A stretch of 64,000 bases of DNA. Source: Ptychodera flava. Its lineage: Eukaryota > Hemichordata > Enteropneusta > Ptychoderidae. The DNA is taken from contig NC_091946.1 of assembly GCF_041260155.1 (NCBI RefSeq), positions 21,841,853 through 21,905,852 on the forward strand. The letters run 5' to 3'. Below the pieces are notes generated by a model. The model did no database searches. It saw only the letters and a program-made list of their open reading frames with translations, and was not told the DNA's origin. Both the position numbers and the translations under genes were made by a program. Numbering within the stretch: the first letter of the stretch is position 1; each line of letters begins with the position of its first letter. This document shows positions 32,932 through 54,181 of this stretch, piece by piece.

Positions 32932-32986
32932 ATGACGTTGGGTGCTCTCTATGCCTTAGAACTGTTGTACTTGCTTCTAAACTTAG
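32932..32986 (+). CDS. TIR receptor exon 1: signal peptide
   Basis: The ATG at 32932 opens [18 protein letters not shown], a compact hydrophobic signal sequence, and ends in phase 1 at a GTGAGT donor. The start was chosen because the 55-bp length, donor phase and 5' flank recur at 60480-60534. A shared GCACGCATGCGCAG block lies at 32880-32893, 38 bp before the ATG. Confidence 0.75.
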
Positions 32987-34046
32987 GTGAGTTTGGAAAA
33001 ATGGGTAGAATCTGTGATTGTGTGTCAGATCGTTTAGCTACGTATCTGGCTGCGCTGTTATGACCAGTTAAGTTCAATGCTTGCTCTAAAACAGGAGAGA
33101 ACCTTTTTTGGTATTTCCGTCTTTCATCGGAATGCGGGTGTAGACTCAGTCGAGACTGAAGTGAATGTATCGAGACACTTTGAAAATTTTTACTGTAAAT
33201 CTGGTATAAACTATGCTAATTCGGTGTGACATAAACCTAAAAAAATCATGCTCAGAGGGGATTTGAGCTTCACATTGACTGATACTTGGTTATAGAATAT
33301 CAAACAGAAAAAAACCACCGATTTGCCATGCATGCAGTCACCTTTAGAAATATACCACACTGTTAGTAATAGTATTACTTTTCGTCGGGCATATTTTAAT
33401 CTATACGTTGTTATATTTCTATTACCATATCAATGTTCTCTATATATTACACCGCTTTCAAATAAGCGGCCTGACATTGTATATTTTGGCACAAATCCTG
33501 TTCTTATTCTTATGATATTTTAAGCATGTTCGCACATTGACTTCGCGTAGTCTTTACGTTTTACTATGTCGTCAAAATATGATTTAATCATTCTATTGAT
33601 TCTAGGCACAAGGATTGAGTGTGAAGGAAGTGAAAATAACACTCACATATATGGAGTGAATAGGCCAACTTTGTCGTGTTTATTTGAAGTTCTTGTTCGT
33701 GAGGTAAGGTTTTACCAGCTTGTTTTACGTCAACGTTTCAAATGCGGAACATGGTAGAGGAAGTATACTCTGCATCATGTAAACACCGAACCCATTGCTC
33801 ACAACTCGAAAGTTGCTTTGCATATGTATGCACTGTAGGACACTCATTCGTAAGTTGTATTGTAAAACAGACAATATAAGGGGGAAGTATCGATGGCAAT
33901 ACACATTCGAATGAATCAAGTACGGTACTTCTGCTTTTCTACTCAAGTGGCACCTTTAGTGACAATAGATATATTCAGCTAGTTTTTGAGGGAATGATAC
34001 ATACATACATACATACATACATACATACATACATACATACATACAT

Positions 34047-34085
<39 letters not shown>

Positions 34086-35090
34086 CACCAACACAGACAG
34101 ACACACAGACACACAGACACACATGTACTATATAAACCCGATATTTCTTCACATTCTTCAGGACACTCCTGTCGGTGATATTATCTTTACCTTTCCTCAT
34201 GATCAGGTAAGTGTATGTCATGAGATTCAATCCGAACATTCCTTCACATATGACTAAACAACATCTATTTATGTGAACAACAACTAGAATATAGAAATCA
34301 ACTAAACTTTAAGCAACTTTGCGGCGAGTAGGAATGAATATAAACACTTGGTGTTGGCCTAACCATCAACACAGCCAACGGATGCATTAAACAAATTGAA
34401 ATCATAGTAAGTAGAGAAAGAAACGAAATTATAAAATCTTTCTGGCAAGCAAACTACCTTTTGCAAGGGCAAAAGAAATCGAAACTTCAACAACATGTCT
34501 TGATTTCAAAAAAATAAGCATATTATTCCATAGATTTGTACATATTTAGTGTCGAAAACAGTGAGAAGAAATCCACTCTTCCACCAGGGCGATTTACCAA
34601 TGCAAATTGTTACAAGTAAAGCCTGAAGCACATGTGTTTCCTTAACATAAAGTCATTCTGAGTAGAAAAGAAAGCATTAAAGTGGAGAACTTTCATACAT
34701 GTATTTAGGAGAGGCTAGTGTGATCTTTATTGGAATAAAGTGGCGAGGAGGTTTTCTGGTGAGGAGTGCAGAGATGGAAACCAGTTTTCGAAAAGGATAA
34801 TATTTTCAAATGATAGCGGAAGAGTAATTGCGAAAAGTCCTTATTTTCCCTTCCATGGAAGATTATTTACATGTAAAATACCTGCAATACTAAAATCAAA
34901 TGTGGAAAAACCGATTGCAAAAATTTTCCGAAATTTGATACATATAGCAGGCTTCCAAAGTATTCACACACAGTATTCTACTGAGCCGTTATTAACTATT
35001 TCCATCGCAATGTAGCGCAGACAGTTTTATTATCAGTTTTGCAAGATGTGTTTAGAGTCGGTGTCCAATAAACGTAAGTTATGGTTTGTC

Positions 35091-35125
<35 letters not shown>

Positions 35126-35866
35126 AGTTTATTCGCTAATGTATGTTTAAAAATAAAAATACACCAGAAATCTCATTGGCTCGTGCTCTAAACCACGAAG
35201 AATACAATTAAAACATTTACAATATAAAAACAGATCAGCAAACACCGATAAGATACAACACTCAATAAATAAGTTACGAACATCTGGCTAAAGGGTCCAC
35301 CCCATTCAGTTGACGGACTGCTGAAGGGTAAAAACTTTTCCTATGATGTTCTGATTTTGCTGCAATAGAGCGGTAATTTTTGTCGTATTGCGGATTTTTA
35401 TCAATGGGTTGACTTGTATTTCGTTATTTCGTTAGCTTTTTATGTTTGTGGTGCTAGCGTTTTAACTATTTAGCATCTCTGTTTTTAGACTTTGTACATT
35501 TAATGATGATGATCTTTGAAATCTAGCAGATCATTAGAACCAGTAATATGAGTTATGAAACATCAACAGTTTCAAGCTATTCTTCTGATGTACCTCCTGC
35601 ACGTAGGACTATACAGATAGTAGATGGAAACACGGTGAGCTGATTTCCACAATCCTTACAACATTTAACTGCGCATTCTACATAAGTACAGGTACACGCA
35701 TTTCTTACGTACACACATTCCCATACATGCTTTTATTCATGAAACTTGTGTCGATTTATGTACATACTTACATACAGTCACTATTTTTAAACAGAATGCA
35801 AGGCACTTGCACAGTTTTCCTGTAGTGAAGATAAATACATGTAGACAGACAGAGGGACAGACAGAC

Positions 35867-35962
<96 letters not shown>

Positions 35963-38900
35963 GCCACCATGTATATTTAGGCCTACATAATGCACATAAA
36001 CACAACACGTACACTGTGGAATAATTTTCAATATGAATAGGCCTAATTAGTTGTTTTTTATTCTATCAAAACAGAACGAGCGTTTTACGGTAGACTCAGA
36101 AACAGGTGATGTTTCTGTGCAGGGATACCTTGACCGCGATATAATTCATGAATACATCCTGGTGATTGTGATTAAGAATTCTCAGGTAGGATATAACTAT
36201 GTGCCCTAACTGTTGCATCATGTCGTTGCGCTATATTTTATCGCTAAGAAGAATAATTCGGTATTCATTTAAGGTAGAACGCGCCTCGGGGACATAGTCG
36301 GACTCTCAAACTGCTACAATTCTTTTCTGATCTACCATTTGTGGGAGCTCATTTTAAAGCTCTTGGAGAAAAACAAAACTTTCCCCGGCTTAGGTTTTCG
36401 AAAATCCAAAATTTTATTTTTTCCCCATAGAGTTAACTGAGGAATGGCGGCCATTTTGAATTTCAAATCTCGCAAAATGTTGGGTAATTTGTTTCGCTAG
36501 TTCCAAACTTTGCACGGTGATTCCCCCGGGTTTTATTGTTGATTTGGTAAAATAATGATTGAAAGTTTCATTCAGGAAAGTTTGAGCAAAAGTTTAAGTC
36601 TTTCACTTTCGAGGCGAATACTTCCTTAAGGTGATTTCAACTCCCTCTTTCTCGTCGGTCGTGTACGTTGTGACATGACCCTCGTAATATGACATCAAAG
36701 CAGATCTAATAATCATTATCATTGAAAGTAAATAAATTTAAATTATGAGGTACAAGAACCAGATACGGCCATCTTGGTGCTACCAAGTTGTACGGGTAAG
36801 CATACTCTGTGAGCATGCTACACCTGCAAATATTGATTAAAATGACAAATTTGGTGTAATTTGGCTGAGCCATCAAATACCGATGTGTGTCAAAAGCAAT
36901 GAATACCATCACTCATCATTTGAAATACAGACGTGTCATGATTCAATACCACGCCTTGCGCCTCTACGTCTAATACAAGACTGTATAAATAATCTTACTA
37001 ATATACTTTATGAGAACTTCCGTCTCATTTGCCTTTGAGGAAATATTTTTTTCTCACTTGTAAGTCCTCATATGAGTTACAAGCTTTACAATATCCCAGG
37101 TGTTAAAATATATGCAAACTAGACCTTATGTAAGCTGGTAGATAAATTCAATATCTCTCTTCGACAAATGATTCATGATCGCTGATGGCATCGGTGACAT
37201 TGGGCCTTAGTTAGTGACCACTGCCTATCTGACTTACAGATTGGTATATGGCGGGTGCCACATGTGGGGCAGGATGCGCTTACTATTTTCGAAACACCTG
37301 ACATCACTTCTTGGTCTTTTGGCCAGAGGTCCATATATCTTTCTTTCATGAATTTGACTTTGTTTGTGTACTGTCTATTTACTGTCTGTTCTGTGCTGTT
37401 TTGTGTCTATGTTTACAACTATTGTCTTACGAATTCTGACCTAGTGTTATTGGATTATGGATTGGTATGATTGCGATTATGTTACATTACTGGAGTAAGG
37501 AACGTTTATGATTTCAAAACTGAAAACGTCCCTCTTGTGATACAGCCTAACATGTCATACATTGAAATTAGAACAATATATCAAAGTTTGATCCTGAGCC
37601 TACTCTGTCTGTTCTTTCTTGAATATCCAAGTCATCTTGATAGATGAGATGGAGCTTTATCTCTAAGTGTTATTTTATTTAGCTTAAACACTTAGCACTC
37701 ATTCATATCCAGATATTTTAGGACACTACCTGAAGTCAGCTTGAAGTCTGCAAGAAACGGTGCACATTTTGTGCCAATAGGAATGCCTGTAGTTTGCATG
37801 AATGTAATGCAAGGAAATTTGATAAATATGTCGCTAATTAGCAAACTTTGCATCTTAATCACATCCACAGCAAGTGTCTTGTTGCTGTTGAAATATCCTG
37901 AAATATTCTTGTTGTCTGCGGGCGCAACAGCATACCTATTAAATAATGCATTTAAGCATTCACGTATACCGAACGGTCACCAAAGCGCAGATGTCGTGTT
38001 GATGACAGCATTTGAAGAGTGAAAATGTCAAATGTCTTAGCTAGCTTTACCGTAACGGTATCTTGGACTGAGCGTAGCCACTGAAAGACATCCATGTCTT
38101 CTCCTTCAAGAAGAGCCCATTTTATCGCATTGGTACGGCAACGCCAACACTGATGATAAAAGTTAAAGCCCCGATTTACATTTGGTGGCAAAAACTTACA
38201 CAACTGTCGAAGTTTAGAAGTGCACGTAATAGTTGGACCAACTGTTTGTAACGAAAGGGAATAAGACATGCAATAACAGGTAGCATTGTGGGAGATGCTT
38301 CCGATGTGTAGATCCTTGAAGACTTTGTTGAAATTGAGACGGTTTCTTCCTATGCTCTATGTATGGGCATAGGAAACTACAGGAGCGTCTTGAATTTTAA
38401 ATATGGAGGTACTATATCCAAAACTTGCTTGTTGTGTAAAACCACTGATATTACTTTTAAGAATCACTCCGCTGACTGTTGATACATAGAGAATAATAAA
38501 CCCTTTTGTTCACTGTTAAATATATTGTGACGTCTGCAATAATAATGATATCATTATGCTATAATGCTTGGTCATATTCATCGTCTATTAACAAACATGC
38601 TTCTTGTTTCTGCTATTTCATATAACTTTGATATACTGTCGGTATATACTATGAATATATACAGTACTTCACCATACAAGCCGGTATCACGATTGCTAAC
38701 CTTCTGTTACAAAAGCAGCAGTTAATTCAGTACGAAATCGTGGAGACTTGAAGCACGCATTTTATGAAAGCTACGAGGATAATCAACTTCAACGGGAATT
38801 ATTGTGCACTGTATCTTGTTCATATAGCGGAAGTGCAGAGATGTATATCAGGTCTGACTTGTTAGTTAAAACCTTCCATACATTCATTGTCAGTCTGTTT

Positions 38901-41900
38901 GAAGATAAATAGAGCAAAACATGCACTTTTTGATGAGTTCAAATAAATTTAATGACTAAAGTGGAAGATGCCGTATGATAAATGATTTACTTAATGGTTT
39001 TTCATCTCAGTCGTTACCTTTTTTGTTCTTCAAATGGACGCAACGCAGGAAGAGAGTCATTCACGATGTTCTCTCAAAATAACCCTTGAAGACGTGGAAG
39101 GATGGCCGCCCTACTACAATGAAACGTGTGAGATGCCGACGAGGAGGCCAAGAAAAGGATTGGTATGTCATCACGTTTCTTTCAGTCTGTGGTTAGAGGT
39201 GAAATCTTTCAATAAACTATTGATGCGATAGCTAGCCCGTTTGTCATTTAGCGGCGATGTTTATTAAATACAAGGTAACACACGAAATGTAATAATAAGT
39301 AATATGATTTAAATAGCATTTTCTGTTTTCAAATACACCTTTACCTAGAAGTCCAGGCGTTGAAGATGCATTAGACGAGACTTCTCCAACGATTTTGCTT
39401 CACACAGTTTAACTTTGTGAATAGCTAGCTCACAATTTAAATGTCATTGTGCTAGATAAATATTTGACATCCACCAACGCTTCACAAATCGGGCACGAAA
39501 TCCAAAGATATTACCCTACACTATTCCCTAGGTACCGGTATCAATAACAAAACAAGTTGTTCGAAAAGTACTGGTCACTGTAATTTTTTAGTGACTAATA
39601 TTGCCCACCAAATTCTCGATACCTCAAATACGATTTTGCCACCTCGGTGAGTCACGTAAGTCTCAGGCGGTCGACTTTATTTTCATCATGGCGGATTTCT
39701 ACAGTTAAAATATATAAGATTACAGAAGTCAAAGTAAAGTTTGAGATTATCCAGAAATTTCATACCAGAAATGCCTAAAAAGATGAAAAGATGAATGAGT
39801 GTAGCTAGTTTAACTAATTAACAGACTAAACTTATTGCCGTGAAAGCGTTTGCTTTTATGTTACAAGTATTTATCAGATCACTGTGTCTTACTCTTGCTA
39901 TATATAGTGAGAAGTCGACGTTTTTACCCACAATGCACTTCAAGATCAAACGGTTTTACTCCTTAGCACAAAACAAAACCTACAAGGTAGCGCGAATTGA
40001 AGTAAATAATGTTTCTAAGCTAAAATATAATCCCGTACGTTAAGGCTATTACGAAAGTTTGTTGAAAACTCACCCACGTCTCGTCGAATTTAACAGCTTT
40101 CCTAGATATACTGTATCAGGGATACTTGCCAGCGAGTTACTCTGGTCTTTGTCACGCCCTCTACCTTGACAGACGTTCCGTTCTCTTACATTCTCTCTGA
40201 AATCTTATCTTGAACGACTCCTCCATTTATCAGCAATTTCATCCGCGTTCAACTTACCTGCCACCTCAATGGCATTCCTCCCTTCCTACCTAACTTTCAT
40301 CTTGGAGGGCCGGGGATAGGAGGAAATTATACCCTTCTTTGCTTTGCAGGCTCCCATCCTTCGAATCCCGCGCACGATCACTATCACCAACCGAATAACG
40401 AGTCTGCACTCATTCAAACATTTTGTTTATCTCCTATATGGGCCACAGGCCTAAACTACGATAAAAGAAGTGTGATTCCCGGGTCACTTCATTTTTTTCT
40501 TCAAGAAATAAACGTCATTGTGACGTTTGTATGTATCTATCAGCTTTGATAAAGTTTTAAAGTTTTCATAAACATTTCTGTCGAAGACCAGTGCCATATG
40601 TTTTTGTAAAACGATTATTTTACATTTTTCAAGGTATAATCTGGAGATGATTGTTAAGAAAGTTAGAATATTGTATGCTCAGAATTAAAGGAAATAATCG
40701 CACAAGTATACCATTCGCAACATCTTACAAGGCCCCAAGTCTCACAAACATCTTTTAATAGGTATGAAAATGTGAAGGAAAGAAATTTCAATAATTCAAA
40801 TGATCTCTAACCATCATAAAAGATCCCATGCATTAAAGTGGCACTCCCACTTGGTAATATTTTTAAAACACATTTTTTAATGCCAACGGTCGATATTTGA
40901 CGTGGCGACTGCGCGCGGATCGCGAGATATCGATAAAAACATGTCATTTCCCGAGCGTATGTTTCACATCCCGAAGTTTTACGAAATCTCCCGAAGGTTT
41001 GTTGTTGTGCTGACTGACGATATTCTAGGGAGTCCATAATAAGTTCGAAAGACGCAATTAATTTACCTCTTACTGCGAAGACTTTATATACAGCATTATG
41101 CCTTTACCTCAGGTAAGTTTTTTTTAAACTTCTCCTTAGTTTTTGTCGTTTTCATTATTGTAAATCAGTTGTATTATACTTTTAACCAATACCACATATA
41201 TATATCAGTTTTTTACGTGTAAGATATTAGCCGCCTCTGATGACTACGTCTGCCAGTGCTTAGACAGCCTGTGGGCCGAAACTTAGTTCCGTTTCGTAAA
41301 AAATGTTTCCAATTTGAATATGCATAAAATGTACAGTTCAGATTTATATCACTGATATCATCTCCTACCGCGTCAAGGTAGTTTTTGCCATACTAGTATT
41401 CAGTTTCAAAATGTTGAAATCCTGTCAATGTTAATTGCCACTGTATTGTATTGCATTGTCGACTCGAGTCGGCTATCCGTGCAGTGCGCTCTTAGCAAGG
41501 CATAGATGTTTTATACTTAGATGTACCGACCGCGATTATCTAGGGTATTTCCGCGATGAAATGTTGTCTTTTTTCAAGTAAAATGTACTCAAAATATTTA
41601 GACATTTTTCCTGTAAATAGGATTAATGTGTGTGCGACCAGAATTGAGTCACAGACCATCAATGCATCGATTATCTATGAGTAAGAATGCCGAGGCACTT
41701 CCAATAGTTTTCCCAGCGGCTATACTAGTCACCTATGCGAATTCTGATGGAATCAGCAAACTTTTTTTTTGCCGAGTCAGTAAGACTCAGCTTTCTCCCT
41801 CGGGGCATGACCGATCACCGACGCGAGTGACACTATGGCGTACATCGTCAGCGTACAGCAGCGTCAGCGTAGACTCGCACTCCCTAGCTTAGTTGACAAT

Positions 41901-44900
41901 GGCCCTAGTGCCGAACGTTCGATGTTCGGAAGCTGAATTCAGGTGGGCCACCGGAATTCAAACTTTTACTTTTTTGAGGACATGGTTTTATCGATATCTC
42001 GCGATCCGCGCGCAGTCAGCACGTCAAATATCGACCGTTGGCATTCACAAAAATGTGTTTTAAAAATGTTACCAAATGGGAGTGTCACTTTAATTCCTTC
42101 GAAATAAAGCTTTATTCTAATCTTTATAACAGGACATGGCGGTTGAGATTTTCTTTGGGAAGACAAAAGTGCCACTAGAAACATTTGAACCACGAATCAA
42201 TGCCACAAACTTCAAGGAGGACTCAAATAATGATGAGTGTAAGTCGAAACGATGAGTAACCTCATATTTTGATACTTGATCACACTTTCCGCATTTTTTG
42301 TTTGGGGGAGGGGGGATGAACTCGTATGATCGGAACTATACGCGGTAAATCAGCGTGACAGAATAAGTCGAAGAAATATTCAATGTGCTTTGGGTTTTTT
42401 TATTTCTATCCTGCGACAAAATCATACGTGTTTGTTGTCTATTTGATTCTTGCTGTTACATGTATTTAACACAGCCATGCTGAATTTATCTGAAATTTAT
42501 CAATAAGGTATACTATTCATGCTACTTATACGGGCCTATTGTACGCTATGATCTTAAAAGGCCATATACTTACTTTTTAAAGATTGACTCAACTGCCCTA
42601 AACCCCGTGCGGACTTAATCCAAAAATCTAGCAATATATTTAGATAATGATTGCAATTTCCAAAGAAGACAAAAGACAGAAATACCTCATAATCTCCTTA
42701 ACACTTCAGTTAATCCTGATCCCGGGCCTTTCGAGCTTTTATTGCTAAACTGTCGGCTATTTATGCAATTTGACGATCGTTTTATGTAGTGTAAAGTGTA
42801 CATAAATTAGGGTACTGCTCAGGTTGCATAAAACTATTGTTCGGTATGATACATAAATTTGTGCGTTAGTGAATCACCTGGTAGTACCATCAAACGGAAC
42901 TGTGTTTTCATAGACTTTTTAAAACATCCTCATATGTACCTACATACAAAATGTCGACTTTAAGTTGTTGGTCAAGTTTTCCTTGAAGTAAAACATTAAT
43001 ATGTAATGAACACTCTTACAAGTTCTCGGATGATATATCTTTAGGTATGTTGACAATGTTTATGCCGATACGTCCAAGATATGGTGTCATGAACTTCAGT
43101 TTGAGAGTATCCGATGTTGAAATGAAATGGGAGAGTGCAAGTGGGCTTATTGCAAATTACACAATATATTCTCAAAAGGTAAGTTAATATTATTATTATG
43201 TATAGCTTAATGCACAGGGCACATGCCACCTACGGTTTTAAAATTAAAGCTGGTACAATTCATTTGAAGGAGCCTCGGCAAATGATTCAAAGTGTTTCAA
43301 CAGTCGCGTGTTCTGTAATTATTGAGGTAATTAAGCAAAATCAAACAGTTCTTCAATACACAAACGATGAGCATTAAAACCGTATCTATTCTCCCTAAAC
43401 GGTGATTACAATGTCTACTCATGTTGATAATTGAATTGTAATTCTGGCGGCGGTTGGAGCGTACAATTTCACGACGGCTATGCAAGTGTGGAAACTCTAT
43501 CCGACAATATGCTAGGCTACACAAAATAAACCTGGAATTCATAAAAGACACAAAAATATGGATGACAGACCGATTAATTTTGACCGTAATTTTGAAGATG
43601 TGAGTACTCAACTCATTTATACATGTGAGACCCTTCCAATTATCATCCTGTCCACCATCAATACTTTGATATGGCTATTGCCTTTGTACTGCAAAATCAA
43701 TTACGTCTTCTATAAAGCCACGATTTTGTAACCGTGGTTTCACGAAATTGGTGTCCAGCTTGTCCTTGCGTCTCTATAATGAATCAAAGTAATAATACCG
43801 ACATTGCCAATTAATAGAACTCACGACAAGTTCTCGAGGATAATCACATAGAAAATATTATAAAATCCTGTGGGTATTCAGTCCGTTCGAGTTGATTTTG
43901 CATTTGCCATACGGCTTTCTTACACTAAAATTAATGATTAAACCCTCAATAGCTCTATGTGCCCATGATTTTAAAAATATTAACCCACAATTCCCAACTA
44001 TTTATGTCATTATGAATACATCCATTATCTGCTCCTTGTGTGTGTATACATTCAAGTAAAATTGGGAATTTTGCTCTACGATCATTAACAATTCTGCAAA
44101 GGCTTTTCATTTTCTGCAACCTACAAGACTTTTCTCCAATTTACCAGGATAATATTCGATGTTTCTCGGCCCTTACTCCTGCCAACTTGGATCTTATTTG
44201 TGCTTCATGTAGATTACTGATACATGTATATACTTTTCTCAAACGACCTTTTTAAAAGTCGAGCTAGGGTTATATATAAAACCAGCCCGTCACAATATTC
44301 TTGATCTATAGTTCACCACTGGCACATTCTCGTCATTCAATCCTTTCAGCCATTTGTGTTCACACAGGAGCACTTTCGCTCACGAGTTATTTTCCTCGAA
44401 TATCGAACGTCTCGCGCCACTTGTTATTTCAAACAGGCAGATTTTCCACCCGATGCTTTGTACGATGATCACTGGTTCAACAAAGCCGAATATGGCAGCA
44501 TCAATGTCAATCAGACATATGCATTATTAAAGGTTGACTTCAAAAATGTCAACACCAAGGCACCTCCGATGCCAATGCACGTGACGTTCTACAAGGGGAT
44601 TAGAACACTTATCTCAACTCACGTTTGGATAGATTATATTGGTAAGAATACCATGGTATCACAATCAAGAACGTAAATGTTAAGAGTTTCATTAAAAAGA
44701 ACCGGAGTCATTCCGAAAGAATGTATACAGTATCTACAGCAACAGAACCAACTATGACATTCATTTATACAATATACCTAAAGCCTTTTGCGTGAATGCC
44801 ATCTAAGTATTAAACGACACGGCAAATATGCATTACGTTGATTAAGCTGATCTGGAAGATATACTTGATTTTGAAAGTTATCTGAGTTTACATTCGGTAC

Positions 44901-46838
44901 TCAATAGCATGTGTCCTTCCAATTTTAAATTTTACTACCCTTTTCAGTAATAGAGCGCGAAGCCACTGCAGTGAACTGCAATAAAACTGCTCACACTAAT
45001 TAGTTTCAGCTGTAGCCAGCTGGCAAAGTCGACAACATTGTATGTCCCATGCAGACAGTTTGTCTGGGGAAGTTGAAATAAAAAAGATTTGTACATGGAC
45101 CAGTGCATGGTAATGTTACATTGTATCTTAATCTTGAACACAGGGTGCCAATCGTAAACTCTCATTTACAACTCGAGCCTCAGACAGAACTAGTTTTGCC
45201 TTTGTACAAGCAGACTTTTTGGTCTTTATCAAGTAGCCTTGTTCAACACCAAAGTGGCCACGGCTACAGCTGAAACTAATTAGTGTAAGCAGTTTTATTG
45301 CAGTTCACTGCAGTGGCTTCGCGCTCTATTACTGCAAATGGTTGTAATATATATCTTCATTGTACACAGTTTGCAAAGAACGACACCAGTAATATAAGTG
45401 ACTTCTAATGTTCAGTTTTTCACATGGTAAGAAAGTAAGTGCGAAATGATTTGCTACCGTACAAGTCTGTCATGATTGACACAATTTACACCATATAATA
45501 ATCAATTTTTCTCCTACACCGAAAGGTTGTCCGGAGGGAAAATATGGAATGATAAAGTGCGACAAAGTTTGTATATGTATGAACGATGGGGACTGCAATT
45601 TATTTAATGGTGCATGTAGGTGTAAACCGGGATGGTATGGACCTGCTTGTGATATCCGTAAGTCTAAGTCAACGCTTCTAGAGTTTTGAAAGAAACACAG
45701 CATTATTATGTTCCTGTAACAGAGCCAATTACTGCAGAGAATCGGCTTCATGAGGAAAGGCTTTACATTTAAGAAATCATACTTACTCTATCGGATTTGC
45801 ACATACAACCCACAGAACCTAGATCCAGCAAAAACGTCCTTGACGACTGTTCCGTCACATCCCCGACTAAGCTTATTTTACTATACATGTGGCATTCTCC
45901 GCTATATAAGCCGCCATATTGCCATTCATCTAGATAGCCCCGGGGTTTTAATTTCTTGTCCCTATGGATTAATGTCTCCGTGAAGTCAAGTCGCCGAAGT
46001 TAAGTTCCTCAAGAACGGTCTTCTTTTATGCTTACTTTGATAATATTTCCGATTCTCAATTTTACCACTCCTCATTGATAATATGTAGTCTGCAGTAGGG
46101 TCTGATGTAATCATTTGCCGACCAAATATCACACGACAAATACTTCAGATCTGCAGTACAAATTACTCTGTACGTCGGCTTACTTGATGTCCACTCATTG
46201 CCTCGGCAAAGACGATGATGAAGTTCGCCCTTGTCAATCAATTCGATGCTAGCGTTCACCAAGTAAAAATATTTGTAATGACATGAGAACAGTCTCTTGT
46301 ACAGCTGACCGTGTTTTGACGATTCTTCTAAAAATCTGAAAGTCAGAACCAGATCATAAGATCGTAAATTTTTTCTTGCCACAAAGCAAATTTATCAATT
46401 AATAGCCAGCAAACTAGTCGGAAACCTTGATCATCGGTTAGCTTGAATAGTTTTGAATTATTGAACGATATGTTTCATCGATATCGGATAATAAGGTATG
46501 GCTAGTGTGAGAATAGATGCTTTTTGAATGAAAATCAGGGCTTATCGGTCATATCCGGAAGTAAAGGAATGGATACAAAGTATCACATGGTTTCTTAATA
46601 CGCATGCGTAAATCATCCACATTTGAATCATACCAAAGATGGCTTTTTATATATGAACACCATGTGGGATAGGTATAGTGAAGAGATGATTATAATTGTA
46701 CATATATAGATTCTGATCAGGCATTGGAGAAACATTTTATACAAGCTTGTTTTCCTCTGTTTTTGGGTGTGAACAATTGTACTTTTTAGTACCATACTAT
46801 TTATTTTTTGTTTTACACCGATGGGCCTGGAGCCTGAT

Positions 46839-46890
<52 letters not shown>

Positions 46891-49800
46891 AATATCGTCA
46901 GGTAATTCTGAAAATTGATGCTGCAAACATCAGAATCATCCACAGTTTAGCGTGACCTCTGTGAGTGATTATGATTTTAATGCCAGTTTTCTTAACATGT
47001 AGGTTGTCAGTGATGAGTTGCATGTTGCATGTTTACTATAGCTTTACACATACTCCTCATTTTTTTTGGTAGTATAGTCCATCCAGCATCTGATTCACTC
47101 TATTTTTTGTATTATTCAGCAAAACCTATGGTTGAGATTTTCCCGAAGCAACAGTACGTTGAATATGGCACAATTACAATTCTAACATGTAAGACCCACA
47201 ATATAGAATCGCCAGAAGAAAACAAATGGATCAGAAATATCACATGGTCTCTTAATAACGAATACTTAAGTCACCCACCTTTGAATCATACTAAAGATGG
47301 CTTTTTTACAGATGAACACAAGGTTGGGTAGGTATATCGAAGTGATAAATACCTTACAGACATAAAGTTTACTCAAAACCTGAGCTGACATTTCAAGTCT
47401 GTGACATTACGTGAAGATCAGTGAATTTCCACTATATTCGTAAGCTCATCATCTTCTGTATGTTTCATTAAAGTCAGAGATCTCGGTGTGACTGTCGTAG
47501 ATAATTGTATGGTGCAATCAAAAGCATTAAGCTGACGATCTGCTTTTATTTTTGCAGAATTTCTGTCTTACAGATTAAAGGAGGTGTTTCCGAAAAAACG
47601 ACTGGCCAGTATGAATGTTCAGTAACTGACAAGTATAATAGTGTCTACGTCGCTTCCGCAACTGTCGCCACGGGTAAACATTTCTTTGGAGTTTCATCCA
47701 CCCACATAAAAACTCAACGCAGATGATAGTTTTTATAAATGCATGAGCTGAGTAAAAGCGTAAACCTTAAGAAATACAAAGAAACATTTATGAAAATGAT
47801 GCGGAAAAGTTCAGACTTGGGTTCCAGCCTGTGGCTGTGACGTAGGGATGGTAAATTAGGTGATCTGTCCCTCGGGAAAGGATAGGCGAAATTGGAGCAA
47901 TATACGCTACTCCTATGCCCACACATGTAGGGGTAATCTCGAAATGATGAAAGCTGGTGCATGAAAATACAAACAAGGAGATTTAATAAGGTGGTATGTT
48001 CATTGATATATCAATGTCGGAATTTCAGAGATGTTGGACAGGATCGTGATTATCGTTTATGGCTGATATTAAACAGAAGATAAATAACTAGCGGAAATAG
48101 GTGCTTGTACGTGAAATGGTGCTTCAAGACGAACCTTGTCTGAGAACTAAAATGTTCCATTTAATACGGTGTACACTTTCATGGCGCAAACCTATCACGT
48201 TGAAGTTTGGAAGCTATGATGCCCGGAATCATATGACATGTACGCGTGTCCTAGGGTTGGCCGCGAATTTTATTACTCTCGCAGCTGCTTGAATCGGCAT
48301 ATAGTTTTTCTGTTTCTGAGAGCAACCTTGTCACATACAGTGTAACCGTCCTTACTCGTACCTATTTACCATTGATTCTTTGCTTATTTATAATAATAAT
48401 GACATTAGCATATCAAATTAAGATATGTAATAATACACTGTAGTTCTGACTTATCAAAGTGTTCCGCTTGTTAAGGTAGAATATGCTTGGGGGGGGGGGG
48501 TAGATATTCGGATGATCAAATTTTTACAATTCTTTTCTACCCTACTAGTTGTGGGGGTTCATTTTAAAACTCTTGTCGTAACAAAGCTTTTCACCGTCAT
48601 ACTTTTTTCGCAATTCGAAAAGTTTATTTTTCCCCATGAGAGTTAACAGACGGATGGCGGCCATTTTGAATTTCAAATCTCGGTAAATTTTAAGTAATTT
48701 GTTTCTCTAATACTTAACTTTGCACGGTGACCCCTGTTTTTATTCTTGATTTGCTAAGATAATGGTAGGAAGTTTCAATGAGGAAAATTTGAGCGATAGA
48801 TAATTCACTGTGATACATATAGGGCCTTACAATCACGGACTGGTCGAATTCTTTTATAGGGCATGATTTCATACTGTTCGCTATTTTCAACCTTCATACT
48901 ATGCATGTATATTATATACCTTTTTATTCATTTTACATTACGTAATAGTCTGCCCTACAAATCTCTTCGGACGATACTGCAACTTGTCATGTGACTGTGT
49001 ACCAGGGTCATCAACTTCCTGTGACCGATACTTTGGCTGCGTCTGCAACACTGGCTGGACAGGAAGACACTGTCATATTGGTAAAGAAAACACTCCGTAT
49101 CTGTTAGAATTGAATCACAAACAGTTCTTTTTTACCTTAAGGTAAACTACACCCAGGGACAACTATTCAGACTCTCAAATTCTTGTAATACTTTTCTGAT
49201 CCACCTTTTGTACGGGCCTAAATTTTAAGCCCACGGATTAAGGTATTTTTACACCGTATCTGTTTTATGAAAATAGAACATTTATTTCTTTCCAATAGAG
49301 TTAACACAGAAATGGTGGCCACTTTCAATTTCAAGCATAGGTAAATGTAAAAAACAATCCCTGCTTGTCATTCTTGATTTGGTAAGGGTATGGTTCAAAC
49401 TTTCCTCTAGGGAAAGTAACATGGCCGAACACGATCTTAACTGAAAAGCGTAGCTCGAATCTGCAGAGTGTAGCTCGAATCTGAAGAAGGAAATTACAAT
49501 ATGAAGAGGACTAGTGTCGTTTTCGGCCACGGTAGGAAAGTGTTAGTCTTGCAGTTTCGACTTGACTTCCGCACTACGGAATATTGCTTTGAATAAAATC
49601 GAGAATAAAATCGAACAGTGATATGATGATTTGACTTATGTTAATCTCATAAGTTTTATTATAATTATATGTTGACCTAGCTTTTATTACTGATACGCAT
49701 TAATGCTGAGAATGTTTATTTACCTGTAGACTTAGTTTCTCCAAAATTTGATGGATGTCCACAGGAGATAACGAAAGTCATCAGAGATGAAGACACAGAG

Positions 49801-51006
49801 ACCAATGTTACGTGGCAGGTACCAACAGTAAGTGATAACTCGGACAATGTTACCGTACAGAACAACTACGCACCTGGCAGTGTCTTCCCCATTGGAACAA
49901 CTGAAGTCAAATACACAGCAATTGACTCGGCAAACAACACTGACACTTGTCAATTTAGGGTCAAGGTCATAAGTGAGTAGTTTTGTAACATTCAATGGTC
50001 TATGTATGTATGTATGTATGTATGTATGTATGTATGTATGTATGTATGTATGTATGTATGTATGTATGTTCGCATGCACGCACGCACGCATGTATATATG
50101 CCTGTTTGTATGTACATTGATTAAGTTGCCGTTGCACAGTTTTATGTATATGCATTGTTGTATGATCATTTAATATGCATATGTCAATGTTTGTGTAAGC
50201 AGAATGCATGTTTTTAAATATGGTTGCTTGTTACAGTGTGTTTGTGGTTGTGCTGTGTTTCTGCGTAAAGCCAAAACACAACCTCAAAATTCTCATCAGT
50301 GTAACATTTTTACCGTCTCGTTATAGAGCAAAGGAAGCTGCATTTGGGCCTCATCATCGGGATTGCAATAGCTTGTCTGGTTTTTGTCATCCCAGTATGT
50401 TTCTATCTTGGATACCGCTACAGGCTACAGATGTATTTGCTTTTGACGACCGACATAGATGACTTTGAAGACGATGGTAAGTGAGCTTTTGTCTCTTTTA
50501 ATGGTATACACATACAGATGCGTGCATACGGATGGCAAATATTTCTCTAGTAGTCACGAGTCGGAAAGACGTTTACTTTATAACAATGTAAATTACTTCC
50601 ATTTTATCTTGATTCATGGCAACGAAAATTTAATTTCTTTGAGCTTCGCATAAGTTCCTATCTTAGTTTCGTTCAAAACTGCCATCAAATAATGATTGAT
50701 AATGGACATTCTTGAAACAACAGGATTTGAACTAATTTGGAATAGTTGCATCTTCATATTTTTCAAAGTTCTCAAAGTGTTAGGTGCTCTACAGCTGAAT
50801 GTTGCAATATTACAAATTACTAATGAGAACAAGTGTATAGATTATGCAATTTAAAAAGCAAATGAGCTTACATTTGCAGATTAAAGCGACATTACTTCAC
50901 CATCCAGTTATCCCAATTAGTTCCAATCGTGTTAAACTAATAATGCTAAAAATTCAAGCATTGATTTACAACAACAACTATACTACTACTTCTACTACTA
51001 CTACTT

Positions 51007-51046
<40 letters not shown>

Positions 51047-51047
51047 C

Positions 51048-51090
<43 letters not shown>

Positions 51091-54000
51091 TCCTTTATTT
51101 CGAGAACCAGCTTATAGATATATAAAAAGTTAAAATAAAAACAAACAATGACGAAGACAACAACAAAAATACGTGCACCCATTAAAAAAGTCTCAACAAT
51201 ACAATACAGAGATTCTACAAACACAGTAAAACCTTATAAACAATCTGTCATGAAACATTTCCATCATCTACCCTTTTTAATAACATAATCAGACAAAGCT
51301 GAGCAGACTAAAGTGTTCGTGCTTCTATTCAATCTAAGATAAAAACCATCCCTAGCTGCACGTTGTTTACTGTCAAAGGTCAAAATGTGATTACGTACAA
51401 ATGTACCTACAAATGTTTCACTTATGCTTAACCTTTGCTTAATATTCAAAAGAATTCTACAACTATTATTATAAGCAACATGAATGTCGCTCATACATCT
51501 TTTGGAGAAAACACTCCATAAATGGGAACTGTACATGGAAGAACAGAAAGTTTGGAAAAGACCAAAGTTGAACAGCTGTGAAATTTACGAATAAGTGAAT
51601 TCGCCTGTGAATACAGCAATCTCATTTGGCGCATTATATCGTCATCGTCATTCCCAAAAAAGACTTCAAGATGACCATCAAATACGTATGTTTCCGTATG
51701 TTTCTCAACAAATTTCAACACCATTATTGGCAATGTATTGAAATTTTATACCGTGTTTATTTGATGTGGCATATCTAACAGAGTTTAGTTGACCAAGACC
51801 ACTGAGTATCCCTACCCTCTTTGTTCATTTACTGTTGATAAGCTCGAGTTTACTATAACATGGAACCTTCACGAACATATTCATTCCTTTGTTTTAAGGT
51901 AGAACACACCTCGGGGACAGACATTCGGACTCTCAAACTTTTACAATTCTCTTCTGATATACCACATGTGGGGGTTCATTTTAAAGCTCTTGGTGAAAGA
52001 AAACTTTTCACCGGCTTAGTTTTTTGAAATTCGAAAATTTTTATTTTTTGCCATAGAGTTAACACAGGGATGGCGGCCATTTTGAATTTCTAATATCGGT
52101 AAATCTTGGGTTATTTGTTTCTCTAGTACCAAACTTTGCACGGTGACCCCCTATTTTTATTCTTGATTTTGAAAGAGAATGATTGAAAGATTCCTTGAGG
52201 AAAGTTTGAGCAAAAGTTTAAGTCTTTCACGTTCGAGGTGCATATTACCTTAAGTCAATATTATAGCACAATTTAAACTGCCCTTGACAGCTGGTTGGTT
52301 GTGCATGATTGTCATCCCTGTAGTACGCACACTACCATCCCAAACAAATAATGCGGACCCCTGATATTTTGTTACTTTAAACTTGGTATGATAGCCGTTA
52401 CCATAGAACGAGGCCTACATATACGGTTAGGAAGGCCATAACAGTCGATAATTTTACAGGTGACAAAGAATACGACGCCTTCGTGTTGTACAGTAGCAAG
52501 GACGGAGATTTCGCCGAAGATATTATGGAGAGAATCGAAAGAAACGGCAAATATAAACAGTTGCTACATCACAGAGACTTTATAGCTGGAAAAGGTGGGT
52601 GTACGTAAAGTCAGCGAAACAATGTCGTTATTAATATGGATAGCTGAGTTTTGGCAATTATTTATATTTATATATTTGTCTAAGGTAGTATACGCCTCGA
52701 AAGGGAACGAATGAAACTTTTGATCAAACTTTCCTTAAAGAATCCTTCAACCATTCTCTTTCAAAATCAAGAATAAAAATTGAAGTCACAGTGCAAATTT
52801 TGGTACTAGAGAAAAAAATAATCAAAGATTTACCGATATTTAAAATTCAAAATAGCCGCCATCCCAGTGCTATCTCTATTGAGAAAAATAAAATTTTCGA
52901 ATTTCGGAAAACTAAACCGGTGAAAAGTTTTCTTACACCAAGAGCTTTAAAATGAACCCCCACAAGTGGTATATCAGAAAAGAATTGTAAAAGTTTAAGA
53001 GTCCAAATATCTGTCCCCGAGGCGCGTTCTACCTTAAGTGAAGTACTACGAATTACGTCAAATAAGGTTGTGGTGTCATTTTCTTGAAACTTTGCACAAA
53101 TATTCTTGGAAGTTGTGCAAGTGTAAAAATGAAATAAAAAATGGGGGTCACCACGCTCGTTTCCATGGAAACGGACGTTAAAATGGCGTCGTCAGAAATA
53201 AATAAAAATGATATAATTCACTTAAACTAAAGAAAGCAATTATAAAACGCTTAGCAAATGAGTTAATTTTAATAAATACCAGGAATTAAGATCCATATCT
53301 ATCGAATGTATAGTTTTCATGATGTTTGTAAAGAAATTTTAACATAAGTATTGATTACAAAATGACGATATCGAAATTATATCACTACATAATTTTCGAA
53401 CTTTCTTCCTGTCGCTTTGAATGGTGTCATTTTGACCAAACTTGGCGAATAAAATCCTGACATAATACCATTTAGTTTACACTTTTAATAAAAGGGTGTC
53501 ACCACGCTATTTTTTACAATATCTCCAGGTGAATGGGTAATATGCGCCATGTAAATGGGAGACAAATGTTAATTTTGCGCTCATATTGAGTAAAAACCAG
53601 CTTCCTAGGGGGTCAAAATATGACAAGGTTAAAGGTCACATGTATTTCTAAGAGACTGGGTCAAAAAATTAGGTAAAGCGCAATTTATCGACTCGAAGGA
53701 GTCGCACGTCCTTTCACAATATTTCGCAGATCAGTGGACTTTCTATATTGAGTCAATCTCCCTCTTTTCATTATCAATAGCTATTTTCGATAACATCGAA
53801 GACTCGTTCGACAACAGTCGGGCTGCCATTTTGGTGATCTCTCCAAATTTCCTCGAGAGTGGCACATGCGAACAAGAGGCGAGAATTGCCCTGGACAACT
53901 GGATCAACAGAAGACAGAAACTGATTCCGATTGTGAAGGGGAACATCGAACACACAAACCACTGTCAGGTGATCAAACGAATCATCAAATTCATAACATA

Positions 54001-54181
54001 TATTAAGTGGCCCGAATATGGTTCAAAGAAAGAGGAAAACACATTTTGGATGGAACTGGAAAACGCTTTGGATAAAAATATGCAAAAGCAGACAAGAATG
54101 GGTTTATTTAAAAAGGCATTATTAACTTTGTTCAGATGCCGCGGAAAGAAGTACTCTAGTGTCCCAAATCATGTTTTATGA
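32932..54181 (+). CDS. Type I receptor: cadherin-like, EGF, Ig, EGF, HYR ectodomain, transmembrane helix, TIR domain
   Basis: Seventeen exons: 32932-32986, 33606-33703, 34162-34206, 35530-35634, 36075-36185, 39049-39162, 42133-42238, 43045-43178, 44350-44641, 45526-45657, 47120-47327, 47558-47673, 48949-49080, 49730-49972, 50327-50476, 52460-52594, 53781-54181. Lengths total 2,577 bp, which is 858 codons plus stop, and phases agree at every junction. Order by residue: signal 1-18; cadherin-like about 44-165; unrecognised 177-353; EGF 354-397; Ig 398-505; EGF 506-549; HYR 550-630; membrane helix about 635-658; TIR 683-820. A cytoplasmic TIR implies signalling through TIR-TIR assembly, as in Toll-like and IL-1 receptors, but the ectodomain has no leucine-rich repeats and only one Ig. 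The EGF-Ig-EGF part recalls Tie receptors, yet no kinase is present. The ligand is unknown. The join across the exons is by eye; no transcript supports it here. Confidence 0.82.
33606..39162 (+). CDS. TIR receptor exons 2-6: single cadherin-like repeat
   Basis: Exons 33606-33703, 34162-34206, 35530-35634, 36075-36185 and 39049-39162 together encode a recognisable cadherin fold. [16 protein letters not shown] corresponds to the first strand and its E-x-PVG turn. [20 protein letters not shown] carries the F-x-ID-x-x-TG and LDRE calcium motifs. [10 protein letters not shown] is the following strand. [13 protein letters not shown] stands where cadherins carry DxNDNxPxF and has lost the Asn-Asp-Asn ligands. 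Calcium binding between repeats is therefore probably reduced, which fits a solitary repeat. Exon 4 has tandem acceptors (TAG at 35524-35526, CAG at 35527-35529), so one extra Gln may be included. Confidence 0.78.
33995..34123 (+). repeat. (CATA)n-(CAGA)n-(CACA)n microsatellite
   Basis: Compound tetranucleotide array about 35 bp before receptor exon 3. The reading frames across it are artefacts of the repeat. Confidence 0.95.
35091..35430 (-). repeat. (TCA)n microsatellite beside a possible retroposon tail
   Basis: A (TCA)n tract at 35091-35126 precedes about 300 bp of non-coding sequence. Read on the minus strand, the tract follows AATAAACTA, as a LINE or SINE 3' end with a simple-repeat tail would. 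The retroposon reading is tentative. Confidence 0.45.
35841..35962 (+). repeat. (GACA)n-(GATA)n microsatellite
   Basis: Short GACA units followed by an almost perfect GATA array of about 95 bp in receptor intron 4. Confidence 0.97.
36269..36629 (+). mobile_element. MITE family A, full-length copy
   Basis: Bounded by TTAAGGTAGAACGCGCCTCG and GAGGCGAATACTTCCTTAA. It carries GAGTTAACTGAGGAATGGCGG and the TTTGCACGGTGA block of the family. Confidence 0.82.
37600..38275 (-). mobile_element. Penelope-like retroelement remnant (reverse transcriptase)
   Basis: Minus-strand translation shows pieces typical of Penelope-like reverse transcriptases: a TFDIFTL stretch (family usual FDFSTLYT), then [16 protein letters not shown] (usual GIPMGTNCAPLLADL), then KYLDMN. 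The element is a broken fossil in several pieces with multiple breaks and no clear ends, lying in receptor intron 5. Confidence 0.65.
40833..42094. mobile_element. Non-autonomous DNA transposon with TIRs of about 105 bp
   Basis: The left end (TTAAAGTGGCACTCCCACTT through the GATATCGATAAAA block near 40940) is mirrored at about 41985-42094, ending GGAGTGTCACTTTAA. The arms agree at most positions and TTAA lies at both outer edges. The 1.05 kb interior has no transposase-like frame. The right end is only 38 bp before receptor exon 7. Confidence 0.88.
42133..44641 (+). CDS. TIR receptor exons 7-9: unrecognised membrane-distal region
   Basis: Exons 42133-42238, 43045-43178 and 44350-44641 (phases 0-1, 1-0, 0-1) encode about 177 residues that I cannot assign. 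Asn-linked glycosylation sites (NAT, NFS, NYT, NQT) are present and cysteines are few. Alternating hydrophobic residues such as [15 protein letters not shown] and [11 protein letters not shown] suggest beta strands. The segment [20 protein letters not shown] leads directly to the first EGF. It could be one or two beta-sandwich modules (fibronectin III, Ig or galactose-binding type). Confidence 0.65.
44945..45335. mobile_element. Non-autonomous DNA transposon with TIRs of about 70 bp
   Basis: CAGTAATAGAGCGCGAAGCC at the left is mirrored by GGCTTCGCGCTCTATTACTG at the right, and the match continues inward to the AACTAATTAGT block and CAGCTGTAGCC. It lies in the intron between receptor exons 9 and 10. 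The CAGTA start is hAT-like. Confidence 0.88.
45526..45657 (+). CDS. TIR receptor exon 10: EGF-like module 1
   Basis: This 132-bp exon, phase 1 at both ends, encodes one eight-cysteine EGF module beginning [12 protein letters not shown] and closing [12 protein letters not shown]. The CPxGxYG-x-x-C opening is the MEGF/Tie/laminin type rather than the calcium-binding type. Confidence 0.85.
46545..46690 (+). pseudogene. Decayed duplicate of the receptor Ig exon
   Basis: Within the intron before exon 11, this stretch matches the second half of that exon and its donor flank at DNA level: TATCACATGG, TTTGAATCATAC and AAAGATGGCTTTTT recur in the same order as at 47240-47310. It is out of frame, has stops, and its intron boundary is changed. 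It is probably a relic of a tandem duplication of the Ig module. Confidence 0.7.
46765..46892 (+). repeat. Retroposon-like 3' tail and (AAAT)n tract
   Basis: A GGGCCTGGAGCCTGA stretch followed by an (AAAT)n array of about 53 bp at 46840-46892, resembling the tail of the LINE ending at 58745 (GGGCCCTTGG followed by AAATAAATAAATA). Probably a short LINE or SINE end. Confidence 0.5.
47120..47673 (+). CDS. TIR receptor exons 11-12: Ig domain split by an intron
   Basis: Exons 47120-47327 and 47558-47673 encode one immunoglobulin domain. The B-strand cysteine is in TILTCKTHN, the core tryptophan in NITWSLNN, and the F-strand motif is GQYECSV. The internal junction is phase 2; the outer phases are 1 and 1. 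Several potential N-glycosylation sites are visible (NIT, NHT). Confidence 0.85.
48471..48805 (+). mobile_element. MITE family A copy, right end eroded
   Basis: TTAAGGTAGAATATGCTTGG opens the element, with an unusual G run following. GCGGCCATTTTGAATTTCAAA and TTTGCACGGTGACCCC match the family, but the right terminal repeat is lost. It lies upstream of the second EGF exon. Confidence 0.72.
48949..49080 (+). CDS. TIR receptor exon 13: EGF-like module 2
   Basis: A second 132-bp, phase 1-1 exon encodes eight cysteines from [11 protein letters not shown] to [10 protein letters not shown]. Length, phases and cysteine count equal those of the first EGF exon, so the two probably arose by exon duplication. 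Confidence 0.85.
49137..49430 (+). mobile_element. MITE family A copy, diverged
   Basis: TTAAGGTAAACTACACCCAGG opens an older copy that includes GAGTTAACACAGAAATGG and TTCTTGATTTGGTAAG. It starts 57 bp after the second EGF exon. Confidence 0.65.
49730..49972 (+). CDS. TIR receptor exon 14: HYR (hyalin repeat) domain
   Basis: One 243-bp exon, phase 1-1, encodes about 81 residues with the HYR signature: a leading CP, an aromatic [11 protein letters not shown], then [17 protein letters not shown] and a closing C-x-F-x-V-x-V. HYR domains are Ig-like adhesive modules found in hyalin and in vertebrate sushi-repeat and complement-related proteins. Here it is the membrane-proximal stalk. Confidence 0.86.
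49998..50110 (+). repeat. (GTAT)n microsatellite
   Basis: A (TATG)n array with a GCACGCACGCACGCA interruption, just after the HYR exon. The frames on both strands are repeat artefacts. Confidence 0.95.
50327..50476 (+). CDS. TIR receptor exon 15: transmembrane helix and juxtamembrane segment
   Basis: The 150-bp exon, phase 1-1, encodes [20 protein letters not shown], a single membrane-spanning helix. It is followed by YRYRLQMY and an acidic DIDDFEDD stretch before the TIR domain. Basic residues follow the helix, giving a cytoplasmic C terminus. Confidence 0.88.
50967..51091 (+). repeat. (ACT)n-(AAT)n microsatellite, tail of the adjoining LINE
   Basis: Trinucleotide arrays of ACT and then AAT directly abut the minus-strand LINE fragment. 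Read on the minus strand they follow AATAAAGGATATT, the expected place of a retroposed tail. Confidence 0.85.
51092..51735 (-). mobile_element. 5'-truncated LINE, 3' end only
   Basis: Minus-strand frames read [19 protein letters not shown], then [10 protein letters not shown] and [14 protein letters not shown]. These are the C-terminal region seen after the reverse transcriptase in many invertebrate LINEs. The two pieces are in different frames, the 5' end is missing, and the tail is the (AAT)n array. It lies in the intron between the membrane and TIR exons of the receptor. Confidence 0.72.
51894..52253 (+). mobile_element. MITE family A, full-length copy upstream of the TIR exon
   Basis: TTAAGGTAGAACACACCTCGG to GAGGTGCATATTACCTTAA. 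It is well preserved and in the opposite orientation to the copy at 52681-53037. Confidence 0.85.
52460..54181 (+). CDS. TIR receptor exons 16-17: cytoplasmic TIR domain
   Basis: Exons 52460-52594 and 53781-54181 encode the TIR domain and the C terminus. Box 1 is [10 protein letters not shown]. Box 2 with the BB loop is [11 protein letters not shown], and box 3 is FWMELENAL (residues 814-822). The helix [18 protein letters not shown] corresponds to the Toll-like receptor SxNFxxSxWCxxEL stretch. Two departures: the BB-loop proline of Toll-like receptors is alanine (residue 723), and the tryptophan before the cysteine is threonine. Exon 16 is 135 bp and symmetric (phase 1-1), so skipping it would remove boxes 1 and 2 in frame. 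The stop TGA is at 54179-54181. Confidence 0.9.
52681..53037 (-). mobile_element. MITE family A, full-length copy downstream of the TIR exon
   Basis: TAAGGTAGTATACGCCTCG to GAGGCGCGTTCTACCTTAA, inverted relative to 51894-52253. The two flank receptor exon 16 (52460-52594). Confidence 0.85.

Follow-up and report, generated by a model that had tools for sequence, protein, structure and literature searches.

The window analysed here is a stretch of 64,000 nucleotides from the hemichordate Ptychodera flava (assembly GCF_041260155.1, contig NC_091946.1, positions 21,841,853 to 21,905,852 of the forward strand), numbered below from its first letter. The GC content is 33-41% per 4 kb and the DNA is intron-bearing and of animal type. 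At 32932-54181 on the forward strand lies a gene of 17 exons that is predicted to encode a type I receptor, in which cadherin, EGF, Ig and HYR modules are joined through one transmembrane helix to a cytoplasmic TIR domain. Exon borders were set by hand from the DNA read at 32700-54360. All 16 introns are GT-AG, the phases are consistent and the coding sequence of 2559 nucleotides, free of in-frame stops, yields 852 residues and a stop codon. An earlier note on this DNA had reported 17 exons in consistent phases with the same start and stop, and the rebuilt model agrees with it; the length of 858 residues given there has to be corrected to 852, a difference that we ascribe to exon borders. The choice of the start codon is uncertain, as an ATG at 33566 is in frame with exon 2 and opens a hydrophobic, signal-like N-terminus of its own. 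The exons are as follows.

32932-32986 (+), exon 1: signal peptide, hydropathy 1.51; donor TAG/gtgagt; codon score no better than intron
33606-33703 (+), exon 2: probable start of the cadherin repeat (VRED at the exon end), outside the Pfam match
34162-34206 (+), exon 3: probably cadherin as well, beyond the Pfam match; its acceptor and donor score higher than any others in the model
35530-35634 (+), exon 4: cadherin; the Pfam Cadherin match begins here, at residue 79
36075-36185 (+), exon 5: cadherin core; Pfam Cadherin 7.7e-10 on the fragment; matches to CELSR1, CDH23 and FAT4 chains
39049-39162 (+), exon 6: end of the cadherin repeat; weak acceptor, score -1.6
42133-42238 (+), exon 7: first part of the bridge segment, no Pfam match; a fraction of 0.023 of the open intron stretches attains its codon score
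43045-43178 (+), exon 8: bridge segment; weak codon score; acceptor score -0.4
44368-44641 (+), exon 9: bridge segment; 91 open codons; weak codon score
45526-45657 (+), exon 10: first EGF module (EGF1), 8 Cys, phase 1-1; similar to SCARF1 and to the first Tie2 EGF
47120-47327 (+), exon 11: Ig domain, first part; Ig_3 below cut-off
47558-47673 (+), exon 12: Ig domain, second part
48949-49080 (+), exon 13: second EGF module (EGF2), 8 Cys, phase 1-1; weak splice sites, acceptor and donor both -0.5
49730-49972 (+), exon 14: complete HYR domain, phase 1-1; Pfam HYR 2.4e-19
50327-50476 (+), exon 15: transmembrane helix and juxtamembrane stretch, phase 1-1
52460-52594 (+), exon 16: N-terminal part of TIR, BB loop RDFIAG
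53781-54181 (+), exon 17: remainder of TIR (SPNFL, box 3 FW), basic tail and stop codon

Following the signal peptide, the predicted protein consists of a cadherin repeat (residues 20-176), a bridge segment (177-347), EGF1 (348-391), an Ig domain (392-499), EGF2 (500-543), HYR (544-625), the transmembrane helix (631-649), TIR (676-820) and a basic tail (821-852). With the whole protein as query, the Pfam models HYR (2.4e-19), TIR_2 (3.2e-15), TIR (2e-14) and Cadherin (9.6e-9) passed their cut-offs, which bears out the claim of the earlier note that one gene model joins adhesion-type modules to a cytoplasmic TIR domain. Ig_3 stayed below its cut-off of 30 bits, at 23.4 bits for the whole protein and 27.3 for the fragment. 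The EGF models also stayed below theirs: EGF_2 scored 19.7 bits for a cut-off of 22.1, EGF_Teneurin 22.3 for 24.3, EGF_laminin 18.6 for 21, EGF_DL_JAG 21.2 for 27 and EGF_TEN 23.8 for 65, so that three of the five fell short by about 2 bits. The cysteine count is even in all six extracellular segments, the bounds of which were chosen by us: eight in each EGF module, four in the cadherin repeat and two each in Ig, HYR and segment 177-347. The nearest match of EGF2 is Tie2's third EGF (22.5 bits). Searched against PDB by sequence, the HYR domain found no relative (two matches, best E 0.44). The stretch at 631-649 is the single strong transmembrane candidate, with a mean hydropathy of 2.92. The 611 ectodomain residues carry 13 N-glycosylation sequons, a number reached in 0.26% of 5,000 shuffles; the cytoplasmic 202 residues carry none, but 35% of 20,000 shuffles lack them too, so that this is uninformative.

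The 3' part of exon 11 (47212-47351) has a decayed copy at 46555-46692, about 658 bases upstream and with gaps, which would represent a past exon duplication. A repeated Ig exon was considered for the model and left out, as the upstream copy has stops in each of the three frames.

The Pfam Cadherin match covers residues 79-151. Because it starts at 79, exons 2 and 3 were given to the cadherin repeat by position and the motif VREDTPVG only. The repeat, a single one in Pfam, resembles those of CELSR1, CDH23 and FAT4 and keeps VRED and LDRD, whereas the linker reads DVEGWPP in place of the DINDNPP of the aligned FAT4 repeat. It is known that homophilic adhesion of classical cadherins requires tandem calcium-braced repeats. 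Since only one repeat is present and the usual linker motif is missing, homophilic adhesion by this repeat appears unlikely, and the link to homophilic adhesion drawn in the earlier note is not sustained. Classical cadherin adhesion was rejected on the same account, as one Pfam repeat with an altered linker was found where tandem calcium-linked repeats would be expected. The segment that follows, 177-347, had no Pfam match; against PDB it retrieved four sequences, CaRSP proteins and a mannanase, none with an E below 0.074; they were taken as chance. The order cadherin-EGF-Ig-EGF-HYR proposed earlier was recovered, except that it had passed over these roughly 170 residues of exons 7-9 behind the cadherin repeat.

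The TIR domain, split by a phase-1 intron between exons 16 and 17, was compared with solved chains. The highest scores were obtained with TLR2 (61 bits, 3.8e-16), TLR1 (54 bits, 4.9e-14), a TLR15 entry (54 bits), TLR6 (52 bits) and TLR5 (38 bits), followed by MyD88 (33 bits, 1.6e-7), TLR10 (29.8 bits), IL1RAPL2 (29.2 bits, 1.9e-6), IL1RAPL1 (27 bits) and TLR3 (24.1 bits). By these alignments, the predicted domain is nearest the TLR1/2/6 group. A passage in PMC7075850 gives the pattern E-x8-C-x-H-x-R-D-F-x-x-G for Toll/TLR domains (group 3) and E-x3-G-Y-x-L-x-I-x-x-R-D-x-x-P-G for the IL-1R group (group 4). The receptor matches five of seven residues of the former (H, R, D, F and G), with C changed to L and E one place off, and five of nine of the latter (E, Y, R, D and G), with G, L, I and P changed. 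Motifs by themselves are indecisive, while the scores favour a TLR-type domain (TLR2 at 3.8e-16 as against IL1RAPL2 at 1.9e-6). Box 3 is present. The BB loop of box 2 reads RDFIAG, with an alanine where most TLRs carry a proline, as in TLR3.

The receptor shares a single transmembrane helix and a C-terminal TIR domain with TLRs, from which it differs in the intron that splits TIR and in the BB-loop alanine. Membership by ectodomain was rejected, since the 17 Pfam matches, taken up to E 10, include no leucine-rich repeat (LRR) family. With the IL-1R family and the invertebrate Ig-TIR proteins it has in common an Ig domain outside, a TIR domain inside and the Glu and Tyr of the IL-1R motif at the right spacing. 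Unlike IL-1 receptors, it has one Ig domain amid EGF, HYR and cadherin modules, and its TIR is nearer TLR2 and TLR1. Membership in the IL-1R family was likewise rejected: the TIR domain has only five of the nine motif residues, and the ectodomain, with Cadherin and HYR also above cut-off, is not one of one or three Ig domains. Passages in PMC7075850 report IL-1R-type TIRs in jawed vertebrates only and Toll-type TIRs in the cnidarian Ig-TIR proteins, so that convergence on IL-1 receptors is the best account of the combination of Ig and TIR in the receptor. The likeness of its EGF modules is to Tie1/Tie2, from which it differs in having TIR for a kinase (no kinase match in Pfam) and in its HYR and cadherin modules.

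Mosaic TIR receptors are already known as a kind. The sources, as far as their passages go, describe Ig-TIR proteins in cnidarians (PMC5094078, PMC1896004) and in a sponge (PMC6043800), and 28 TIR domain combinations in amphioxus, 20 of them amphioxus-specific (PMC2575513). Among the latter are TIR-Laminin hybrids, which resemble the receptor in placing TIR and a laminin-type module in one invertebrate protein. The predicted receptors 14109 and 17966 of the coral Pocillopora damicornis combine LRRs, cadherin, EGF_CA and thrombospondin domains with TIR (PMC9897584). They are alike in having cadherin and EGF outside and TIR inside, and unlike in their many LRRs and thrombospondin domains, with HYR and Ig unmentioned in that passage. 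The ecTIR-DC families of bivalves and other invertebrates are also conserved non-TLR TIR proteins, although the examples described in these sources are without a transmembrane domain or called cytosolic (PMC6321704, PMC6836662, PMC5549309). Atypical architectures are reported in only a few Toll-type TIR proteins, according to a passage in PMC7075850. The Ig-TIR, TIR-Laminin and coral proteins lessen the surprise, and the contrast with known TIR receptors made in the earlier note was too strong in view of these proteins. Its remark that it knew of no named family with this ectodomain agrees with our finding that cadherin-EGF-Ig-EGF-HYR-TM-TIR (TM, transmembrane) is unnamed among the literature matches listed (titles, abstract starts and passages), a coverage outside which the Gerdol 2017 catalogue of invertebrate TIR families lies. 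The exact order may be new. The last TIR exon gave seven pattern matches and no relative among viral contigs, and tblastn gave no match among plasmids; as these collections hold no animal genomes, both results are uninformative on relatives. Taken together, the observation of the earlier note is confirmed and its interpretation partly supported.

Support for the exon model is uneven. In exon 17, 132 open codons precede the stop, and stop-free stretches of 133 codons occurred in none of 400,000 intron draws; a frame as long as exon 9 (91 codons) would be open at a fraction of 0.0039 of the intron positions. Six of the 17 exons (5, 6, 7, 10, 14 and 16) beat 95% of open intron stretches when codon use was scored leave-one-out, and ten (1, 2, 3, 4, 8, 9, 11, 12, 13 and 15) fell short; for exon 17 the null distribution is absent, so it receives no verdict. 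Codon bias by itself is weak evidence for the exons. Among all GT and AG sites of the region, the donors lie in the upper tail at 0.001-0.147 and the acceptors at 0.002-0.298. These ranks and the combined P-values are not an independent test, because the sites were picked by eye. Introns 4, 5, 11 and 16 each fall within one Pfam match, which makes those joins sound, with the qualification that the Ig match spanning intron 11 is below its cut-off. EGF-Ig-EGF-HYR-TM-TIR falls within 8.7 kb, with phases fitting throughout, and is the better supported part of the model; EGF1, EGF2, HYR, the transmembrane segment and the first TIR exon are all phase 1-1. The weakest point is the join of cadherin to EGF, which runs through exons 7-9 and exon 6 with its weak acceptor.

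On this basis we lean towards one gene encoding a type I receptor, the ectodomain of which would be clustered by ligand to start signalling through a TIR adaptor. Such a receptor may have been built by exon shuffling, in which a TLR-like TIR and transmembrane segment were joined to a non-LRR ectodomain. The ectodomain would bind a soluble, matrix or microbial ligand and bring receptors together, and the paired TIR domains could then recruit a TIR adaptor, MyD88-like or other, for an NF-kB-type response. The cadherin repeat would act as a spacer or binding module rather than a homophilic adhesive, and the BB-loop alanine may weaken or alter the choice of adaptor. As a mechanism, a ligand-clustered sensor is probably the best and a simpler one than homophilic adhesion. 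A soluble form is possible as well: reading through exon 14 into intron 14 terminates the protein after HYR at VISE-stop, and a transcript retaining this intron would give a soluble ectodomain and potential decoy.

Several observations weigh against a single signalling receptor. For introns 6-10 and 12-15, only phase, splice sites, strand and proximity speak for the joins. Splice sites are weak at exons 6, 8, 10 (donor) and 13. The bridge exons 7-9 have no family match, and exons 8 and 9 are undistinguished by codon use. A strict automatic exon scan returned three readings, which covered exons 2 and 3 only. AATAAA or ATTAAA hexamers occur three times in intron 15 and seven times in intron 16, which is little telling because AT-rich DNA gives them freely. 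In the TIR domain, the affinity to TLRs is uneven, with TLR10 and TLR3 scoring about like or below IL1RAPL2, and the BB-loop proline linked to MyD88 recruitment is missing.

In passages of PMC3634009, the TLR2 change P681A greatly reduced the TLR2/1 and TLR2/2 responses and left the TLR2/6 response in place when the ligand dose was high, and changes at L663 and N688 abolished TLR2 signalling. By alignment, the receptor keeps an Asn at the place of N688 and has Ile at that of L663. As P681A lowered rather than abolished signalling, and the receptor keeps the Asn with Leu replaced by Ile, MyD88-type coupling is possible but unproven. The same alanine in TLR3, A795, is reported as essential for TRIF recruitment in a passage of PMC7215789, and according to a title cited there the adaptor becomes MyD88 instead of TRIF once this residue is changed to proline. 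Passages in PMC7075850 suggest that only jawed vertebrates have TRIF-type TIRs, so a TLR3-like route would probably depend on some other adaptor. We give limited credence to a more far-reaching proposal, a distinct class of animal TIR receptors: the LRR sensor of Toll would have given way to a Tie-like EGF/Ig ectodomain that carries HYR and cadherin, matrix or growth-factor-type ligands would act on TIR, and the BB-loop alanine would select a non-MyD88 adaptor. Somewhat less probable still is a regulator or decoy, compatible with the gene model, in which TIR would bind adaptors or other TIR receptors and not signal. The change of proline to alanine and the reduced TLR2/1 and TLR2/2 responses of P681A speak for it; the residual TLR2/6 response, the role of the same alanine in TLR3 and the retained Asn with Ile at the place of L663 speak against it.

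Other alternatives divide the gene. The cadherin part (exons 1-6) could be a separate gene or fragment, with the receptor formed by exons 7-17 or 10-17 and a first exon of its own. The unmatched bridge exons, the weak acceptor of exon 6, exons 1 and 4 without a codon signal and an intron 6 of about 3 kb all fit such a division. We nevertheless consider it quite unlikely, as exons 1-17 join in phase with no stop. An extra exon was not found in the 16 introns (length divisible by three, acceptor at least 2.5, donor at least 5), a negative of little weight because most exons of the model would fail these thresholds; no systematic search for a signal-peptide exon was made. That the model merges two adjacent genes, one for a secreted ectodomain protein that stops near the HYR exon and one for a TM-TIR protein, is very improbable. 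The immediate stop on reading through exon 14 agrees with such a merger, and Hydra has membrane TIR proteins whose ectodomain is small or absent (PMC7075850, PMC1896004, in the passages concerned). Yet phase 1-1 holds for the HYR and transmembrane exons and for the first TIR exon, and intron 14 has just 354 bases and no polyadenylation hexamer. The open frame of the transmembrane exon contains no ATG before the helix, although an unseen upstream exon could still supply one. A glutamate after a cysteine (CEQE) probably takes the position that the catalytic Glu has in TIR enzymes, but a Glu of this type is kept also in TLRs that are not known to have NAD-cleaving activity. That TIR would be an NAD-cleaving enzyme like SARM1 instead of a scaffold can hardly be entertained, as the domain is nearest TLRs and box 2 and box 3 are reported in the Toll/TLR, IL-1R and MyD88 groups, with SARM1 (group 24) unlisted in that passage of PMC7075850.

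The surroundings of the receptor gene contain the following features, none of which looks related to it.

5382-20046 (+): golgin-like coiled-coil gene, which we take to be GCC2-like; open frame of 1010 codons at 5382-8411, Rab_bind at 19756-20046 (4.4e-10)
27646-29742 (-): FIS1 gene in two open frames, Fis1_TPR_N (6.2e-14) and Fis1_TPR_C (5.8e-13)
55735-57921: broken retroelement downstream, RVT_1 pieces at 8.9e-12 and 1.3e-4, the second below cut-off

Tandem repeats, each of 146 bases, break up the retroelement at 56250-57463. Upstream of the receptor, a short signal-peptide-like frame, MSRIVMFTFLTCLVVSANQC, lies at 31777-31905 (+) and is tied to no exon. A repeat of about 350 bases, with an end near TTAAGGTAGAACGCGCCTCGGGG, is present in introns of the receptor gene in four copies (36286-36630, 48496-48837, 51894-52261 and 52672-53037), the last of them inverted, and in a partial copy at 49281-49346. 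The direct copies are 60-85% like the reference and the inverted arms 74-92% complementary; the repeat is probably a non-autonomous DNA transposon. Intron 9 holds an inverted repeat of 92 bases (44926-45017/45262-45353), 93% complementary with arms 244 bases apart, as in a foldback-type element. Another, of 89 bases, 88% complementary and with arms 1033 bases apart, lies in intron 6 (40857-40945/41979-42067).

If the receptor is transcribed as modelled, TIR signalling can be wired to adhesion and growth-factor-receptor modules. The gene would then add to the cases in which shuffling has joined TIR exons to a new ectodomain, here in a mosaic receptor of the invertebrate type, and provide a test case for ligands that drive TIR adaptors beyond the microbial ones read by LRRs and the cytokine ones read by Ig domains. 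Should it represent a distinct class of animal TIR receptors, matrix or growth-factor-type ligands would feed directly into TIR signalling.

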